From Sedimenticola thiotaurini (GTDB lineage Bacteria; Pseudomonadota; Gammaproteobacteria; Chromatiales; Chromatiaceae): a DNA stretch of 64,000 nt. The position numbers were made by a program, and so were the translations under genes. The stretch's first letter is position 1, and every line of letters begins with the position of its first letter. Below are positions 23,684 through 32,685 of the stretch, one piece after another. Location: positions 372,001 to 436,000 of the forward strand of contig VMRY01000003.1 in the NCBI GenBank assembly GCA_007713595.1. The letters are read 5' to 3'. The notes beneath the pieces were generated by a model. The model ran no database searches and was not told the origin of the DNA. It worked only from the letters and a program-made list of their open reading frames with translations.

Positions 23684-23897
23684 GGTTCACTACCCAAAAT
23701 CTTTATAAAAAATGAGCAAGTCACAATACCCGAAATATTTTTATCAATCCACTTTTTGATCTTAGGCTAGAAACAGAAAGAATTATTATCCTGATGATTT
23801 ATCAATGCATCAGTTCGCTGTCTCTGGTCGTATAGGTATCCAGTATGGGTGGCTATATCTGAGGCTTCCTGTCGTGACAGTTTGAGAGGAAGTGGTG

Positions 23898-25613
23898 ATG
23901 GTACAAATTGTTATTCGAAACTTTCATGTGGCATCCCGATTGCTGAGTCTGCTTTTGCTCGGTCTAGTCACAGGATTAAATGTTCAGGCGTCTGGTGAAG
24001 TGGAGCTTGGGATATCTGAATATGCTGATACCAGCAGCGCACATCTTAAATCAATTAATGATTCTCCGATTAAGATTAGAGTCAGCAGTTCTACTGCGGA
24101 TCACTCTGAATTCAAGGAGTTGCAGGGACCTTTCAGCAGTGGCCCGGAAGTGACCGAAGCCTGCCTGAGTTGTCATAACAAGGCAGGCCATCAGTTTATG
24201 AAAGGCATTCACTGGACCTGGGAGTACAAGCATCCTGTGACCGGCCAGACACTGGGTAAGAAAAATCTGGTGAATAATTTCTGCACCAATTCTCGTGGCA
24301 ACGAGGGTATGTGTGCCCAGTGTCATGCGGGTTATGGCTGGAAGGATGAAACTTTTGATTTTAGCGACCAGAACAAGATTGATTGTCTGGTCTGTCATGA
24401 TGCTACTGGAAGTTACTACCGTACACCGACCTCAAAAGGTAATGCCGCCTGTTCAATCATGTTTGAAGGCAAGAAACCGATTGAATGGGCGACTGTTGCA
24501 CAGAGTGTGGCGTTGCCAACGCGATCAAACTGCGGTACGTGCCACTTCTATGGGGGCGGTGGTGACGGGGTCAAGCACGGAGATCTTGATTCTTCCCTGA
24601 AGCATCCAGATAGGGCACTGGATGTTCACATGGATGCAGAGGGCTTGAACTTCAGCTGTACAGAGTGTCACCAGGGTGAAGGGCATAAATGGTCTGGCAG
24701 TCGGTATAACATGGCGGCAAAAGATGTTGAGGGTATAGGTAAGCCAGGCCAACGTCGGCAAGTGGCTACTTGCGAAAGTTGTCATGGTAATACACCTCAT
24801 CCCGGTAACAATCTCAAGGCAATCAAGTTGAATGGGCATACCGATCGCGTTGCCTGTCAAACCTGCCACATTCCTACATTTGCACGTGGTGGTGTCGCCA
24901 CGAAAGTGGATTGGGATTGGCGCACAGCGGGCAAACTGAAAAATGGTGAAGGCTTCAACATAAAAGAGTACACCCAAGGTAATGGTGAGCATCGCGCAAC
25001 CTATAAATCAATAAAAGGTGATTTCAAATACGGCGAAAACATGCAGCCAAGCTATGCCTGGTTTGATGGCGTGATGAACTACACCACTATCGATACCAAA
25101 TTCGATCCAGCAAATGGACCAGTGGAAATCAATAGTTTTAATGGCGCCTATGATGATCAGAACTCACGTATCTGGCCATTCAAAAAGATGCACACCACAC
25201 AGCCCTACGATAAGGGAAACAATACCCTGGTCTATATGCATCTCTGGGGTAATGATGAAAATGCCTTTTGGGGAAACTACGATTTTGCTAAAGCGATCAA
25301 GGTTGGTATGGAGAAGAATGGAAAACCCTATTCTGGTGAATTTGGTTTTGTGGAAACCTACTCCTATTGGCCGATAACGCACATGGTTGCGCCAAAGGAT
25401 GAAGCCCTTTCATGCAGTGAGTGCCATGCCAAGAAGGGTAGGCTAAGTGGACTGAAAGGCTTTTATATGCCAGGACGAGACGGCTTTGGTTGGTTGGATA
25501 TAGTCGGCTATCTGGCTGTAATTGCCGCAATACTTATTGCATTCGTACACGGCATTGTTCGATTTGTTATGTGCAAAAAGCAAGTGACAGAACACTGCAA
25601 GGGAGAGGAGTAA
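23898..25613 (+). CDS. Octaheme c-type cytochrome (tetrathionate reductase family)
   Basis: About 571 residues with a signal peptide (about 1-33) and exactly eight CXXCH heme sites in order: CLSCH, CAQCH, CLVCH, CGTCH, CTECH, CESCH, CQTCH and CSECH. A single transmembrane helix lies near residues 533-560, after the last heme. Number and spacing fit the octaheme tetrathionate reductase (OTR) family, whose known members reduce tetrathionate, nitrite or hydroxylamine in vitro. The actual substrate here is not settled. Unlike the soluble Shewanella enzyme, this protein is tethered to the membrane, and the next gene encodes a cytochrome b that could feed it electrons from quinol. The ATG at 23898 is preferred over an in-frame GTG pair upstream because GAGGA lies 7 bases ahead. 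Confidence 0.92.
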   Translation: MVQIVIRNFHVASRLLSLLLLGLVTGLNVQASGEVELGISEYADTSSAHLKSINDSPIKIRVSSSTADHSEFKELQGPFSSGPEVTEACLSCHNKAGHQFMKGIHWTWEYKHPVTGQTLGKKNLVNNFCTNSRGNEGMCAQCHAGYGWKDETFDFSDQNKIDCLVCHDATGSYYRTPTSKGNAACSIMFEGKKPIEWATVAQSVALPTRSNCGTCHFYGGGGDGVKHGDLDSSLKHPDRALDVHMDAEGLNFSCTECHQGEGHKWSGSRYNMAAKDVEGIGKPGQRRQVATCESCHGNTPHPGNNLKAIKLNGHTDRVACQTCHIPTFARGGVATKVDWDWRTAGKLKNGEGFNIKEYTQGNGEHRATYKSIKGDFKYGENMQPSYAWFDGVMNYTTIDTKFDPANGPVEINSFNGAYDDQNSRIWPFKKMHTTQPYDKGNNTLVYMHLWGNDENAFWGNYDFAKAIKVGMEKNGKPYSGEFGFVETYSYWPITHMVAPKDEALSCSECHAKKGRLSGLKGFYMPGRDGFGWLDIVGYLAVIAAILIAFVHGIVRFVMCKKQVTEHCKGEE

Positions 25614-25618
25614 TCGAC

Positions 25619-26287
25619 ATGATCAAGAGAGAGAAACACGCGGTTACTATCTATACTCGTTATGAGCGTTTCTGGCACTGGTCTCAAGCAGTATTGATCT
25701 TTATGCTTGCCTTTACCGGGTTCGGCCTGCACGGCACCCATGATCTATTGCCCTTTCAACAAGCAGTGATGCTGCACACCTTCTCTGCGATAGCGCTGAT
25801 TCTTCTATGGATCTTCACTACCTTCTGGAATTTCACGACAGGTAACTGGCGACAATTTCTTCCCAATACAAAAGGGTTGTTTGCCGTTATCCGGTATTAT
25901 GCATGGGGCATTCTGTTTGGTGAGGATCATCCCCATAAAAAAACCTTAAGACGAAAACAGAATGCATTGCAGGGTTTGGCCTATCTGACATTCATGGTCA
26001 TTATCGGGCCCGCACTTTGGATAACTGGCATTGTCTATATTCTTTATGATCTCTGGAATGAAATTCCAGGTGCAGCAGATGGCCTTTTTATAGTTGCATT
26101 TCTGCATACAGCGGCTGCTTTCCTGATGGTCACCTTTGTGATCATTCATATCTATATGACTACCACGGGGAAGACCCCGCTGCATTATATTAAGACCATG
26201 ATTACAGGTGTTGAAAATGTCGAGTTAACCGAAGTAGAAAGGGCCTACTTGCAAGAGGAGCATCCAGACCGGTTACGTGATGGCTAG
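25619..26287 (+). CDS. Cytochrome b (thiosulfate reductase/hydrogenase b-subunit type)
   Basis: A 222-residue integral membrane protein with four predicted helices and histidines suited to two b hemes (RFWHWSQ in helix 1, MLHTFSA in helix 2, AFLHTAAAF and VIIHIYM in the last helices). It resembles the cytochrome b561-type subunits that pass electrons between quinone and a periplasmic redox enzyme. GGGAGAGGAG stands 8 bases before the ATG, overlapping the end of the octaheme gene, so the two form an operon. A terminator follows 31 bases downstream. Confidence 0.92.
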   Translation: MIKREKHAVTIYTRYERFWHWSQAVLIFMLAFTGFGLHGTHDLLPFQQAVMLHTFSAIALILLWIFTTFWNFTTGNWRQFLPNTKGLFAVIRYYAWGILFGEDHPHKKTLRRKQNALQGLAYLTFMVIIGPALWITGIVYILYDLWNEIPGAADGLFIVAFLHTAAAFLMVTFVIIHIYMTTTGKTPLHYIKTMITGVENVELTEVERAYLQEEHPDRLRDG

Positions 26288-26772: not shown

Positions 26773-27756
26773 CTAAATGGCTTTGCCGCACTGAATACAA
26801 AATTTGTTCCCCGGGATAATCGCTTCGCCGCAATAAATACAGTATTTAACAGACTGTGTCCGTTTTTCAGGACCGGGAGAAAGGGTTTGATTGAGTTCCG
26901 TGATTAATCGATCAACACCCGCATGAAAATAGGGCTCCGCCGGTATGGGTATAGCGTTTCGAAAGGCTAATGGCTTTATACTCTCTGGGAGTTGAGCTTC
27001 ATCGGGCATCACGCCATTTTTTACCAGCACAGGTATGATCGGAATCTCTTTTTTCAGTGCCATCTCTATTTCGACTTTTACGGGATCACTGTCGAGTTCC
27101 AGCCGACGCTGTCCTGCGTTATTTTTTGCCTCAATCCATTGCGCGCCGATGACAATAAGAAAGGCACTGCATCCCTCAATGGTTTTACTGATGTGATTGC
27201 GATAATCGACCCCGGCGGGTATGGAGTCAACATCTCTGAAGATTGTCTCCTTGCCATATTCGTTATTTAACCTGTCACAAATACGCCCCGTGATCTCACG
27301 GCTGTCGTCCCGTCGATAAGAGATAAAGATTGACCCCATTGATTTGGCTTTGCTGGGTGACGTTATCTTTTCTGTGGTTTTCTCTTTTTTCAGGGGTGAT
27401 GGGGATTGTTTGCCAGTCATTTTGACATAGAGGTACTGGCTGGGTTTGATGATCGAGTTGATGGATTTTTCAAGGCCCTTGAAGGTGAAAGCTTCTCTGA
27501 TGGTTTCAGGCGCGCGATCACCACACTCCAGATGTATATTGTCATCTGTGTTCAGGTCTATCTGGAGTTGTTCACTTTTATAAAAATCGAGCTTGATGCC
27601 AATAGCATGTTTACCGCAGGATAATCTGAACTGCTTGACTTGGCCGGCCTGAATCTTGCCGACCACCTTATTGTCCACCGTAATGGCAAACTGCCGCAGT
27701 TGATTGGAACTGGTTTTGTTTCTTTTTAACGTGATAAAGGCAGATGATTGCGTCAT
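26773..27756 (-). CDS. TIR-domain protein with C-terminal zinc ribbon
   Basis: 327 residues in three parts. Residues 1-115 form a beta-rich domain I cannot name. Residues 141-275 are a TIR domain: IFISYRRDDS, FRDVDSIPAG, CSAFLIVIGAQWIEA, and a DPVKVEIEMAL helix whose glutamate 229 aligns by eye with the catalytic glutamate of NAD-cleaving TIR domains such as SARM1. Residues 306-323 form a zinc ribbon (CIYC...FCIQC). It could cleave NAD+ on receiving a signal; whether it does is not shown. It sits 23 bases after a small membrane protein with the same kind of zinc ribbon, and probably shares its transcript. No membrane helix is visible in this protein. Confidence 0.88.
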   Translation of the reverse strand: MTQSSAFITLKRNKTSSNQLRQFAITVDNKVVGKIQAGQVKQFRLSCGKHAIGIKLDFYKSEQLQIDLNTDDNIHLECGDRAPETIREAFTFKGLEKSINSIIKPSQYLYVKMTGKQSPSPLKKEKTTEKITSPSKAKSMGSIFISYRRDDSREITGRICDRLNNEYGKETIFRDVDSIPAGVDYRNHISKTIEGCSAFLIVIGAQWIEAKNNAGQRRLELDSDPVKVEIEMALKKEIPIIPVLVKNGVMPDEAQLPESIKPLAFRNAIPIPAEPYFHAGVDRLITELNQTLSPGPEKRTQSVKYCIYCGEAIIPGNKFCIQCGKAI

Positions 27757-27779
27757 TGGGCTAACCTTTGCAGACGTGT

Positions 27780-28109
27780 CTACATATCACTGCTGATGAT
27801 GAAGTAGACCAGCATGATGCCCAGGCTGCCATAGAGCCACAATTTACCGACATCCTTTTTCTCTTCTGACTCATTTTGGGCAAGATAGATAATACCCATT
27901 ATCAGACCAATAAACGGGATGAATACGGATGCAGCCAGGATGCCATATTTCATGCTGTCCGAAATGCCGGTTTGCCCGTTATCGATTTCTACCACATCGT
28001 CAATACGGTTATGAATGGGATCCTTCGTTGAAGTGCTCATCTCGTAGCGACAATTTCCGCAGAATTTTGCGCCATCCGGATTCTCTGTTCCACACTCTGG
28101 GCAAAACAT
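27780..28109 (-). CDS. Zinc-ribbon membrane protein
   Basis: About 109 residues. The N-terminus is a zinc ribbon (FCPECGTENPDGAKFCGNC, two CxxC pairs), followed by a polar linker and two transmembrane helices (about 57-78 and 90-106). The start at 28109 has AGGAGGGA 7 bases upstream; the longer open frame from 28175 has none. It is the upstream gene of a two-gene unit with the TIR protein, and the ribbons of the two are alike, which suggests a shared partner. Function unknown. Confidence 0.8.
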   Translation of the reverse strand: MFCPECGTENPDGAKFCGNCRYEMSTSTKDPIHNRIDDVVEIDNGQTGISDSMKYGILAASVFIPFIGLIMGIIYLAQNESEEKKDVGKLWLYGSLGIMLVYFIISSDM

Positions 28110-28373
28110 ATTGAGTCCCTCCTGTCGAGCCAAGCCTTTATTATCCCATAGCCAGCATCGGTACTGATAAGCCAAACGTTAATCAGTTACCTGTCTACAC
28201 TATAAATACTAGACTACTGGTGTGATTACAACAGTAGCCAGCGGAGTATAAAGAGGATCAAAGTGATTGTGACTATGGTCGTGTGAATCATCCCTAGCAA
28301 TATGCGCGTTGGCTATACTGGTCGATAAGGATGGATGCCCGGCAGTGATTGCAGTGTAGGGTGGGGGAGAAAA

Positions 28374-31091
28374 ATGGATAAGCGTAAGGAGAAGACAGAG
28401 GTCCTGGTCAAAGAGGTCCGCGCCGTTTTGAATGGCCAGTCGCTGGATGCAGGTCTGGCCGATATCTTGGCTCGAAAACTGATTGATCTGGACATCCATT
28501 ACTGGGCACGCCAGCTGCTGCTAAAGCTACTTGGCCGTACCGATCTGCAACGCCCTCAGCGAATTCGTCTGGTGCAGGCATTGGCACTGGCCACATACAA
28601 AGACACTACGCTGCTGCAAGTGGAAGCCTTTGACAAGGCCCAGGAGTTACTCGCTGCAGAGTTTGATCTAAAGACGACAAAGGATCAGGAGACACTGGGT
28701 CTGGTTGGGGCGCTCTACAAACGACGCTGGCGATTGGGTCATCGGAAACTGTGGCTGGAACAATCTCTACACTATTACCGACGCGGGTTTGACTGCGGGG
28801 TCATCGGCGATGCCGGGTATACAGCCATTAATGCCGCCTATATTCAGGATCTCCTTGCCTACATAGAGAGTCAGCCTGATAACTCGGTCGGTTCCAGAGA
28901 AGGTACTGAACTGCGCCGTGCAGATGCCCAGTTTATACGCCAGCAGGTCATTACCAGATTGAGCCCGGACCTGCCGGATAAAAATGCTACAGAAGAAGAA
29001 TATTATTGGCTTCTTGTGACAATGGCAGAGGCCTATCTGGGTATGGGTGATAATGCACAGGCCAGTGTTTTACTGAAGCAGGCGGCAGAGCTGGATGATA
29101 TTCCTGACTGGTGGAAAAAAAGTACGGTTGAACAGTTGATTCATCTGATACAGGTGCAATCACCTGATCAGGATGCAACACCGCTCAGTGAATCGGCATC
29201 CTGGTCAGCGGTTAATTATCTGTTGGGTGATGCGTCGGTAAAGGCGGCGGAAACACTGTTTTCCGGCAAGGTGGGGTTGGCACTTTCTGGTGGTGGCTTT
29301 CGCGCATCCTTTTATCACTTGGGTGTGCTGGCAAAATTAGCTGAGTTGGATATGCTGCGCCATATTGAAGTGCTCTCCTGTGTTTCCGGCGGCTCCATTG
29401 TTGGCGCGCACTACTATCTTGAGTTGCGCCGGATGATGCAATTTTCTAGCAGGGATTCTGAACAGAAAAATTACGGGTTGAGTGATGAGGCAATCACGCA
29501 AGATGACTATCTGGCACTTGTCGCGACCCTTATAGATGACTTCCTTGATGGTGTACAGAAAAATATTCGCATGCGCGTACTGGCAAGCCCGATTGCCAAT
29601 CTGAAAATGCTCTTCCTGCCCACTTATTCACGCACTGAATATCTGGGGGAGTTGTATGAAAAATTCCTTTATAGCCGCGTCAAAGACAATCCGAAAAGTG
29701 ACTCAGAAAAAACGGCACCGCGTCTGTTGAGAGAGATGATTATTCAACCGCCCGATGAAGTGGCAGGCTTCCGTCCTGACAATGTGAACTGGCGTCGCTG
29801 TAATAAGATTCCGCAACTGGTGCTGAACTCTACAACATTAAATACAGGACATGTGTGGCAGTTTACAGTGACCTGGATGGGGGAGTCCCCGAACCTGATC
29901 AATCGTGCGATTGATAAAAACCCGCGCTTACGACGACTCTATTATCAGGAGGCACCTGAAGTGCGGTATCAGAATTTTCGCCTCGGTCATGCAGTGGCAG
30001 CCTCCTCCTGTGTGCCAGGGCTGTTTGAACCGATAGAGCTGCCTCAGCTCTATCCTGAAAAAAACATTCGTCTGGTGGATGGGGGTGTGTTTGATAATCA
30101 GGGCTACGCCTCACTCCTGGAACAGGATTGCAAGGTGATGATAATCAGTGATGCCAGTGGTCAGCTCACTGCAGATGATGATCCAGCCGGAGGTGTACTG
30201 GGACCTGTCTTACGCAGTAACTCCGTGATGATGGAGCGTATACGCTGGAGTGGTTATGAGGATCTCCATGCGCGTCGCCGTAGTAGTCTTCTGAAGGGAT
30301 TGACCTATGTGCACTTGACCCAGGGATTGGAAGGAAAGGAGATTGACTGGAAAAAAGAGACAGGGAGTGCTGTAGTGAATCCGATGGTCGAACCAAACAC
30401 CGGATACGGAATCAGGCGAGAGGTGCAACATCGACTGGCGAGTATACGCACGGACCTGGATTCGTTTAACGATATCGAAGCACTTGCCCTTATGAACAGT
30501 GGTTATTATGCAATGGCAGAGGTTGCCGGCAATCTTGATGACTTTCCGCTGGTTAAAGATGTCAGGCATAACTGGATTTTTCAGCAACTTGATGAGGCAA
30601 TGCAATCGACACAAGATTCAAACAGTAAGATCTCTGCAAAGAAACTGGATAACCAGTTGAAGATTTCCCATATGAAGTTTTTCAAGGTCTGGCGGTTAAA
30701 CAGCACTTTGTATGGATTTGCGATTGCGGTTGCTGCAATCTGTCTAATCGGGCTGGGGTACTGGACCATTAACGCCCTCATTACTGATCCGACGATGAGC
30801 ATAATGGCGACGGCTCCAGCTCAGTCACTCATCAGTAGTTTGACTGCGATTCTGACACTGCAGAATCTGGTCGCGGGTCTCTTTTTCCTGTTGCTCGGTT
30901 ATGGGCTTTTAGCGCTGTTTGGTAAACGTGTGGGGAAACGCCTTATGCAGTTCCTCAAGCCACGTTCAGCAATGCAGCGGGTAACCATTGGACTTGGGAT
31001 TGGGCTGATAGGTTGGATCTTTCCGCGCCTGCACCTGATGCTGTTTGATCGTATTTATCTTAAGATGGGCCGTGTGCGTGAGAGTAAATAA
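28374..31091 (+). CDS. Patatin-like phospholipase with TRAFs-binding-like N-terminus and membrane C-terminus
   Basis: About 905 residues. An N-terminal helical region (about 60-250; LGLVGALYKRRW, LHYYRRGFDCG, YTAINAAYIQDLL) resembles the TRAFs-binding/DUF4071 helical-repeat domain. A patatin domain follows (about 290-640): ALSGGGFRASFYHLG is the oxyanion loop, SCVSGGSIVG carries the nucleophile near residue 336 (C in place of the first G of GxSxG, a known variant) and VDGGVFDNQG gives the DG motif near 568. Three transmembrane helices lie at the C-terminus (about 773-800, 815-845, 865-890). It should act on membrane lipids at the cytoplasmic face. GGGGGAGA precedes the ATG. Divergent from the zinc-ribbon/TIR pair, with about 264 bases between. 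Confidence 0.9.
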   Translation: MDKRKEKTEVLVKEVRAVLNGQSLDAGLADILARKLIDLDIHYWARQLLLKLLGRTDLQRPQRIRLVQALALATYKDTTLLQVEAFDKAQELLAAEFDLKTTKDQETLGLVGALYKRRWRLGHRKLWLEQSLHYYRRGFDCGVIGDAGYTAINAAYIQDLLAYIESQPDNSVGSREGTELRRADAQFIRQQVITRLSPDLPDKNATEEEYYWLLVTMAEAYLGMGDNAQASVLLKQAAELDDIPDWWKKSTVEQLIHLIQVQSPDQDATPLSESASWSAVNYLLGDASVKAAETLFSGKVGLALSGGGFRASFYHLGVLAKLAELDMLRHIEVLSCVSGGSIVGAHYYLELRRMMQFSSRDSEQKNYGLSDEAITQDDYLALVATLIDDFLDGVQKNIRMRVLASPIANLKMLFLPTYSRTEYLGELYEKFLYSRVKDNPKSDSEKTAPRLLREMIIQPPDEVAGFRPDNVNWRRCNKIPQLVLNSTTLNTGHVWQFTVTWMGESPNLINRAIDKNPRLRRLYYQEAPEVRYQNFRLGHAVAASSCVPGLFEPIELPQLYPEKNIRLVDGGVFDNQGYASLLEQDCKVMIISDASGQLTADDDPAGGVLGPVLRSNSVMMERIRWSGYEDLHARRRSSLLKGLTYVHLTQGLEGKEIDWKKETGSAVVNPMVEPNTGYGIRREVQHRLASIRTDLDSFNDIEALALMNSGYYAMAEVAGNLDDFPLVKDVRHNWIFQQLDEAMQSTQDSNSKISAKKLDNQLKISHMKFFKVWRLNSTLYGFAIAVAAICLIGLGYWTINALITDPTMSIMATAPAQSLISSLTAILTLQNLVAGLFFLLLGYGLLALFGKRVGKRLMQFLKPRSAMQRVTIGLGIGLIGWIFPRLHLMLFDRIYLKMGRVRESK

Positions 31092-31104: not shown

Positions 31105-32088
31105 TTACATTAAGAGGCGAAACTCGCGAAACCAGCGAGCGAGTTGCTCATGGTAGAGGTGGGCAGCATATTGAGGACCGTTGTAAAAGCGTGCGACTTT
31201 TCGAAAATCTTCCGTTGTTGGATCTCCTTTTCTGGTTTGTGATTCTCTTGGCTTTAAAAATTCGCCAACAAAGATAACCTGCTTCTCGACAGGGGCTGTA
31301 AATAATGCTGTGGCATTGCTGGCACCCACTGCCTGATAATTTGTACCCATAATTTGACCAAGGCCGAGGCTCATGGATTGCATGCGCAATTCAGGCAGTG
31401 ATTGTTCGGGATGATTTCTATTGAGTCGCGAGAGATAGTGCTGTTCAAATCGGGGGCGAATTACCCCGGCCGTCTCCTGGCGAATGATGGCCAGTATCCA
31501 TTCGGCTCTGACGGTAATCCCCTCCTGCTCACGAATTCCTTCAGATGCCGTTTGTGCCGATTGACCATAGTGTTCTAGGATTTCCCGGCAGTTGAGAAAG
31601 CGCCGACGATGCAGCGCATTAAGATGGAACAGGGCACTCTCTAGCTCTCCAGTCATGATCTGCTTATTCTTGCAGCGCTCTTTTGCAACGCTCAGCATGG
31701 CAGTGAGTGTTGGCTCTGTTAATGTGGCTTCGGGTACGCTGGTGATGAGTTTTTTGGCTGTATTCCACTGGCAGGGATAGCAGAGATCCTTCCTTGAAAT
31801 GGTAGATGAAAGTTGATGTTCAAACTGAAATTGCGCAACAGCGCGATTGGTTCCACGCCCAAAGTCCCCATCAATGCTGAACGCACCACTGGCCGATGTT
31901 GAATAGCCTAAAAAGATAAGAAGTCGTTGTACTGCACTGATGGCCAACTCACCAACGGAGCGCCGGGTCAGTCTGATATCATGCTCAAGGAAGCGCTGTA
32001 GGTCACTCTGCCAGGTGACCGTATCATCATCGGGGTGGGTGACAATTTTGCGAATAATCGGATCGTTCACGAGTGCTGCAACGTCCAT
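31105..32088 (-). CDS. Peptidoglycan-binding N-acetylmuramidase-like protein
   Basis: 327 residues. A PG_binding_1 domain is visible near residues 45-95 (VQRLLIFLGY, IDGDFGRGTNRAVAQFQ). The C-terminal half (about 165-325) resembles the DUF3380 N-acetylmuramidase domain: AIIRQETAGVIRPRFEQHYL with a glutamate as catalytic candidate, then SMSLGLGQIMGTNYQAVG and KVARFYNG. No signal peptide or membrane helix is seen, so export would need another route such as a secretion system or lysis, or the substrate lies elsewhere. It is the last gene of a three-gene unit, convergent with the patatin gene (13 bases between stops). Confidence 0.78.
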   Translation of the reverse strand: MDVAALVNDPIIRKIVTHPDDDTVTWQSDLQRFLEHDIRLTRRSVGELAISAVQRLLIFLGYSTSASGAFSIDGDFGRGTNRAVAQFQFEHQLSSTISRKDLCYPCQWNTAKKLITSVPEATLTEPTLTAMLSVAKERCKNKQIMTGELESALFHLNALHRRRFLNCREILEHYGQSAQTASEGIREQEGITVRAEWILAIIRQETAGVIRPRFEQHYLSRLNRNHPEQSLPELRMQSMSLGLGQIMGTNYQAVGASNATALFTAPVEKQVIFVGEFLKPRESQTRKGDPTTEDFRKVARFYNGPQYAAHLYHEQLARWFREFRLLM

Positions 32089-32126: not shown

Positions 32127-32312
32127 CTAATCCTTGTTTGTCGTTTCGCCTATCAGTTTCTGTCGATACTCCTTGATACAATCACTGCAGATAAAAGCAT
32201 CAGGGCCCTGAATCATCTTCTTTACCTGGTTAGTGCCTTTGCCACAGAAAGAGCAGAAAGGAGGTTCCGGTTTTCTGTTTGAGGGTATTGTATTGCTATT
32301 CATCGGGTTCAT
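32127..32312 (-). CDS. Stand-alone ClpX-type C4 zinc-finger protein
   Basis: A 61-residue protein consisting almost only of a zf-C4_ClpX domain: cysteines 20, 23, 42 and 45 in CSFCGK and FICSDC, with [12 protein letters not shown] between, just like the N-terminus of ClpX. There is no AAA+ part, so it cannot unfold proteins, but the domain alone dimerises and binds ClpX substrates or adaptors. Its start lies inside the 3' end of the preceding gene (17-base overlap, different frame), pointing to coupled translation. Confidence 0.85.
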
Positions 32313-32685
32313 ACATCGCTAGAAAAAGTGTTTCCGCTACAGGATAGCCGTCTGTCCTGTCCGGATGGTTGAAAACAATAAAGTCACCCGCCTGATATTC
32401 CGACTCACCCTCTTTGGTTTTGATGCGCCCATTTGTATGAGCCTTTTCTGCCCAGACGGGGGTTGTCTTTAGATAGCGGCCCGGTTCAATTTTCTGGTAG
32501 GTTTTTTTAAAGGAGTCTGCATCAATCGAGTAGACATCACCGCCGTTATCTACCAGCCAGTCACCGGGCTTGCAGTGTTGCTCCGCGCCCCACTTGTTAT
32601 AGTGTAGTCCCGGAGTATCCAGGGTGAGCCGTATAGCGGTAACGGCTTGATCAGGGCGCTTTCGATAGCGTTGCAGTGTGCTCAT
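32296..32685 (-). CDS. PGDYG-like domain protein
   Basis: 129 residues with [26 protein letters not shown] and a second [13 protein letters not shown], resembling the small PGDYG family, which has no known function. Soluble and without signal peptide. First gene of a minus-strand unit that continues into the ClpX-type zinc finger (overlapping by 17 bases) and the muramidase-like gene. No recognised promoter is visible upstream, where 194 bases separate it from the porin gene. Confidence 0.72.

Follow-up and report, generated by a model that had tools for sequence, protein, structure and literature searches.

A zinc-ribbon TIR operon divergent from a TPR-S-patatin gene in Sedimenticola is, by composition, a candidate new variant of TIR-effector signaling

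On the chromosome of a Sedimenticola species, an operon encoding a small zinc-ribbon membrane protein (ZnR-TM) and a TIR-domain protein lies divergent to the gene for a 905-aa patatin, and by its composition this locus is a candidate new variant of TIR-effector signaling. No defense-system library recognizes it (the Thoeris, CBASS, and PADLOC models give no full-length match), and all three genes are present where a sequence-only reading of the window (the whole 64,000-nucleotide stretch of DNA that was analyzed) had placed them. The pairing of TIR protein and patatin is real, conserved, and probably functional. More tentatively, and with confidence falling just short of even, we favor a Thoeris-like system of two modules, in which the TIR protein would make an NAD+-derived signal and the membrane-bound TPR-S-patatin would answer it by hydrolyzing lipids.

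Genes and proteins of the locus

The first gene of the operon encodes ZnR-TM (positions 27780-28109, minus strand; 109 aa counted from the ATG), and because only 23 nt separate its stop from the start of the TIR gene on the same strand (26773-27756; 327 aa), the two are taken to form an operon. The patatin gene (28374-31091, plus strand) diverges from ZnR-TM across 264 nt, an arrangement that rules out coupling of TIR protein and patatin through a single operon, and stands tail-to-tail, with 13 nt between, with a gene for an endolysin-like muramidase bearing PG_binding_1 and Muramidase (PF11860) domains (31105-32088, minus strand). A PGDYG-like protein of 129 aa (32296-32685, minus strand), which is a weak candidate associate, is encoded beside the muramidase in Sedimenticola and divergent to ZnR-TM in genome G022. 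Read by eye, the surroundings in the window are ordinary chromosomal (core) genes with no obvious mobile elements; positions 23892-26287 encode a cytochrome of the octaheme tetrathionate-reductase family and, after it, a cytochrome b561-type protein.

The TIR protein comprises an N-terminal beta-rich domain (residues 1-112), a SARM1-like TIR domain (143-290), and a C-terminal CxxC-CxxC zinc ribbon (306-324). Pfam's TIR_2 family matches residues 143-267 (E 2e-12, 48 bits), and the ribbon, at residues 305-326, scores 24.6 bits, slightly below the Pfam cut-off of 25. The best fold match of a structure model built from seven sequences (mean pLDDT 71) is the human SARM1 TIR (TMt 0.82-0.85; among the matches, entry 7cm7 bears the title E642A), and a profile search with the orthologues, independent of the fold match, also finds SARM1 as well as C. 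elegans TIR-1. That profile aligns E229, which sits in VEIEMAL, with the Glu of SARM1 HKEIVTAL, the catalytic residue of SARM1. Across 13 TIR orthologues at 41-78% identity, neither E229 nor any of the four ribbon cysteines varies; the preserved catalytic glutamate proposed in the sequence-only reading is thus upheld, and a search for its substitution in close homologues returned none. Having the SARM1-like fold and the aligned catalytic Glu of SARM1-type TIR NADases, the protein is probably an NAD-cutting enzyme. It differs from SARM1 and TIR-1, its closest solved folds, in lacking ARM and SAM domains and in that its gene shares an operon with just one other, for a zinc-ribbon membrane protein. 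Full-length relatives were found only in Sedimenticola's family within a sample of the class, and the N-terminal domain stands alone as proteins of 100-142 aa in a few other gammaproteobacteria (L259, L260, and L261). The organism's own genome holds three TIR_2 matches in 3.86 Mb.

ZnR-TM matches the Pfam family Zn_Ribbon_1 (E 5e-8), carries two hydrophobic helices (~58-76 and ~89-107 in P0002 numbering), and has four cysteines that are invariant across 13 aligned loci, which bears out the description of a small membrane protein preceding the TIR gene, with a zinc ribbon in each; the further suggestion of zinc-ribbon partners at the locus holds for the TIR protein and ZnR-TM but not for the patatin, which has no ribbon. 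Among 210 genomes of Sedimenticola's order, ZnR-TM lies directly upstream of TIR in 18 of the 18 loci with a full or contig-truncated TIR orthologue, and in a 19th ZnR-TM genome (G128) the gene is cut at the contig end. As it always accompanies TIR and shares its type of ribbon, ZnR-TM appears best placed to be the sensor of the trigger or the anchor of the TIR protein.

Upstream of the operon, at positions 28205-28217 on the minus strand, lies the element GTAGTCTAGTATT, whose consensus, from a comparison of the regions upstream of ZnR-TM in loci L084-L098, is KTRGTCTASWATT; relatives carry GGTCTACAATT. In eight Sedimenticola loci, as in four of the six g47 loci, the consensus element precedes ZnR-TM by ~106-129 nt; in L091 the distance is 61 nt, and a close variant occurs ~40 nt upstream in G022. 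Because the four genomes searched hold at most two occurrences each (none in G126), no regulon is seen. The element is a putative promoter or operator.

The patatin protein combines an N-terminal TPR-S domain (57-156, E 8e-15), a Patatin domain (302-575, E 3e-15), and three C-terminal hydrophobic segments, in agreement with the earlier description of a divergent 905-residue patatin with a membrane C-terminus. Its N-terminus scores 55.7 bits against Pfam's TPR-S ("Tetratricopeptide Repeats-Sensor"; cut-off 27.6); a candidate sensor is therefore present, fused to the effector, and the earlier statement that no known sensor stands beside the TIR and patatin genes had missed it. TPR-S is reportedly predicted to sense NAD+-derived signals. 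The features of Patatin/cPLA2 phospholipases, namely a Ser in VSGGS, an Asp in DGG, and the Gly-rich GGGFR, are all found, and S338, D569, and GGGFRAS are invariant in 36 homologues. A model of the protein (mean pLDDT 81.5, 36 sequences) matches cPLA2 and the central regulatory region of ASK1, matches that inform on fold class only because the whole-chain TM-scores are low (about 0.2-0.4). The closest named relatives are all from Sedimenticola, and the protein looks like a membrane phospholipase with a candidate-sensor front end. ASK signalosome components trace back to bacterial conflict systems (PMC8195603).

Conservation of the pairing and its counterparts elsewhere

In all nine sampled Sedimenticola genomes, which make up the whole sampled genus and represent one lineage, the patatin gene is divergent and adjacent to the ZnR-TM/TIR pair. 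The left flank of TIR differs between Sedimenticola subclades, with a breakpoint at the 3' end of the TIR gene, and the three genes are intact in 9/9 genomes despite this rearrangement; since the right flank is syntenic more widely than the left, the breakpoint argues for a unit without proving one. The neighborhood search accordingly found a genus-wide association rather than none, but the three-gene association that had been proposed does not extend outside the genus, where nine other ZnR-TM/TIR loci (six g47 loci together with G022, G188, and G191) have other surroundings and no adjacent patatin. With the pair lacking a neighboring patatin in 9/18 loci, an obligatory three-gene association is ruled out outside Sedimenticola. 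Inheritance of the locus is vertical, in core-gene surroundings and outside any defense island, so that stress is as conceivable a trigger as phage.

The muramidase, which resembles phage endolysins and in which no signal peptide, hydrophobic N-terminal segment, or TM segment was seen, adjoins the patatin in eight of the nine Sedimenticola genomes and is degraded near it in the ninth. It also occurs near TPR-S-patatins in three mutually related Methylococcales loci (63% identity), and in g36 and g5 it stands without a patatin in its short flanks. These last occurrences weaken the case for the muramidase as a fixed component and leave lysis of membrane and then wall possible but not established; its association with the patatin locus is accordingly graded as possible. 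In Methylococcaceae, genes for a GH46-family protein and an LprI-like protein (lysozyme inhibitor) lie directly upstream of a TPR-S-patatin (L150:6755-7939 and L121:1004-2176).

A genome-wide scan for TPR-S-patatins yielded 80 loci from many phyla. A Pfam scan of the 287 neighbors within three genes, at loci outside Sedimenticola, gave TPR-S (21) and TIR_2 (18) as the commonest specific families, making TIR the commonest unrelated neighbor family. By local HMM, TIR lies within four genes of the TPR-S-patatin in 20/64 loci, while local profiles place a DrHyd-like/TPR-S neighbor in 19/64 and a SLOG-like neighbor in 8/64; one of these three kinds of neighbor is present in 34/64. The DrHyd-like and SLOG-like labels were presumptively assigned, by eye; of the DrHyd-like protein, the TPR-S part alone has Pfam confirmation. 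TIR genes are denser near the TPR-S-patatins (20/290) than far from them (5/254) within the same loci, with a p-value (p=0.007) that is only indicative because the loci share ancestry, and about two thirds of the TPR-S-patatin loci have no adjacent TIR. One 1580-aa ORF (L138:353-6350), located beside a TIR gene, is a TPR-S-patatin with an N-terminal region that by eye resembles a ParA-like ATPase.

Within the order, a TPR-S protein above cut-off occurs in 18/19 ZnR-TM genomes vs 56/191 others, a comparison uncorrected for phylogeny, and some TPR-S proteins of the ZnR-TM genomes also contain a CHAT-like or a trypsin-like domain (the latter by eye). In g47 genomes, a CHAT-TPR-S protein adjoins another TIR; two such loci (L251:1636-6097 and L252:1051-5513), which hold an MBL-fold-like protein, CHAT-TPR-S, and a fusion of TIR with a hydrolase-like domain, next to a protein designated F35, are another case of TIR paired with TPR-S, here with an effector of protease type. 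F35, a conserved protein of ~380-410 aa (L098:8728-9864, L103:4334-5563, L251:360-1556, and L252:5589-6737), adjoins ZnR-TM/TIR in G022, a TPR-S-patatin in G016, and TIR/CHAT-TPR-S in g47; it was read by eye as a wall hydrolase, and as Pfam, PDB, and profile comparisons gave no match in favor of that reading, it was dropped as evidence.

Known systems, candidate mechanism, and alternatives

The locus resembles Thoeris in that a TIR-domain protein with a catalytic Glu (ThsB-like) is encoded beside a gene joining candidate ligand-binding and killing domains, and it may well work in a similar manner. In Thoeris, however, ThsA is SIR2-SLOG, TM-macro, or caspase-like, and no such effector was found at this locus, where the adjacent effector is the TPR-S-patatin-TM protein, with TPR-S as the would-be receptor and patatin as the would-be killer; lacking ThsA, the locus falls outside Thoeris. 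The TIR protein gives no more than weak partial matches to the ThsB model and to that of ThcB4, the latter far below its cut-off, and PADLOC returned no match for the patatin or its neighbors except the TIR protein. In Thoeris I, II, and IV, the TIR producer and receptor-effector share one operon (PMC12847820). A patatin phospholipase as cell-killing effector also recalls CapV-type CBASS, from which the locus differs in the TPR-S N-terminus and membrane C-terminus of its patatin and in that no CD-NTase was seen nearby: no cyclase was noticed among the proteins read at ~22-36 kb, and PADLOC gave no cyclase match for six of these proteins. The sequence-only reading likewise found neither ThsA nor a cyclase beside these genes. 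The locus also resembles the TPR-S conflict systems, which Burroughs and Aravind reportedly predicted in 2020 and in which an effector carries a fused TPR-S domain and has TIR, DrHyd-like, or SLOG-like proteins as neighbors. Here, TPR-S likewise exceeds its Pfam cut-off and is fused to an effector, and the divergent adjacent TIR operon supplies a predicted NAD/nucleotide-processing enzyme nearby; unlike in those systems, the partner is a zinc-ribbon TIR protein together with a zinc-ribbon membrane protein, a combination not found outside the order in the genomes sampled.

In the mechanism we favor, ZnR-TM would sense a trigger at the envelope, or anchor the TIR protein there, and would assemble or release its zinc-ribbon partner. 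The assembled TIR protein would then cleave NAD+ by means of E229 to give an ADP-ribose-type product, whose binding to TPR-S might free the cPLA2-like catalytic domain of the patatin at the inner membrane. Hydrolysis of phospholipids would in turn permeabilize the membrane and kill or arrest the cell.

A somewhat unlikely alternative is that the modules are independent and their linkage inherited but functionless, the ZnR-TM/TIR NADase depleting NAD+ directly and the patatin answering some other input. The loci in which ZnR-TM/TIR has no adjacent patatin (9/18), the absence of adjacent TIR genes at most other patatin loci, and the divergent promoters in place of a single operon are all consistent with this; the persistence of the trio in 9/9 Sedimenticola across a rearranged TIR left flank and the repeated finding, in unrelated bacteria, of TIR genes next to those for TPR-S-patatins nevertheless argue for a connection. 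The adaptor role, by which a non-catalytic TIR protein would recruit partners through TIR and zinc-ribbon contacts, is highly improbable: TIR domains can act as scaffolds, and the ribbons of both partner proteins suggest physical contact, but the catalytic Glu is invariant over the whole range of orthologue identity and the closest fold is that of an NADase, SARM1.

The same proteins could also serve something other than phage defense, namely a vertically inherited module for envelope stress or programmed lysis, in which the patatin would attack the membrane and the muramidase the wall. Presence in every genus member (9/9), core-gene surroundings without obvious mobile elements, the conserved locus-specific upstream element, and the signal-less muramidase beside the patatin, in 8/9 Sedimenticola and the three Methylococcales loci, point this way, yet the muramidase stands alone in g36 and g5, those Methylococcales loci are interrelated, and TIR, CHAT, and STAND neighbors elsewhere point to conflict systems, so that we consider this unlikely. 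Quite improbable, finally, is a more elaborate form of the favored mechanism, in which ZnR-TM gates the TIR protein, the TIR product activates the TPR-S-patatin, and the breached membrane admits the cytosolic muramidase to the wall, as a host analogue of holin and endolysin under the control of an NAD+ signal. If that form were true, it would provide the first receptor role for the TPR scaffold that is shared with animal ASK kinases.

Should the two-module signaling that we favor prove true, one more class of receptor, TPR-S, and one more way of killing, by phospholipase, would be added to those known for TIR-made signals in bacteria. TPR-S is a scaffold that the human stress kinase ASK1 also contains, and a compact locus of three genes would then allow its proposed ligand to be tested directly.
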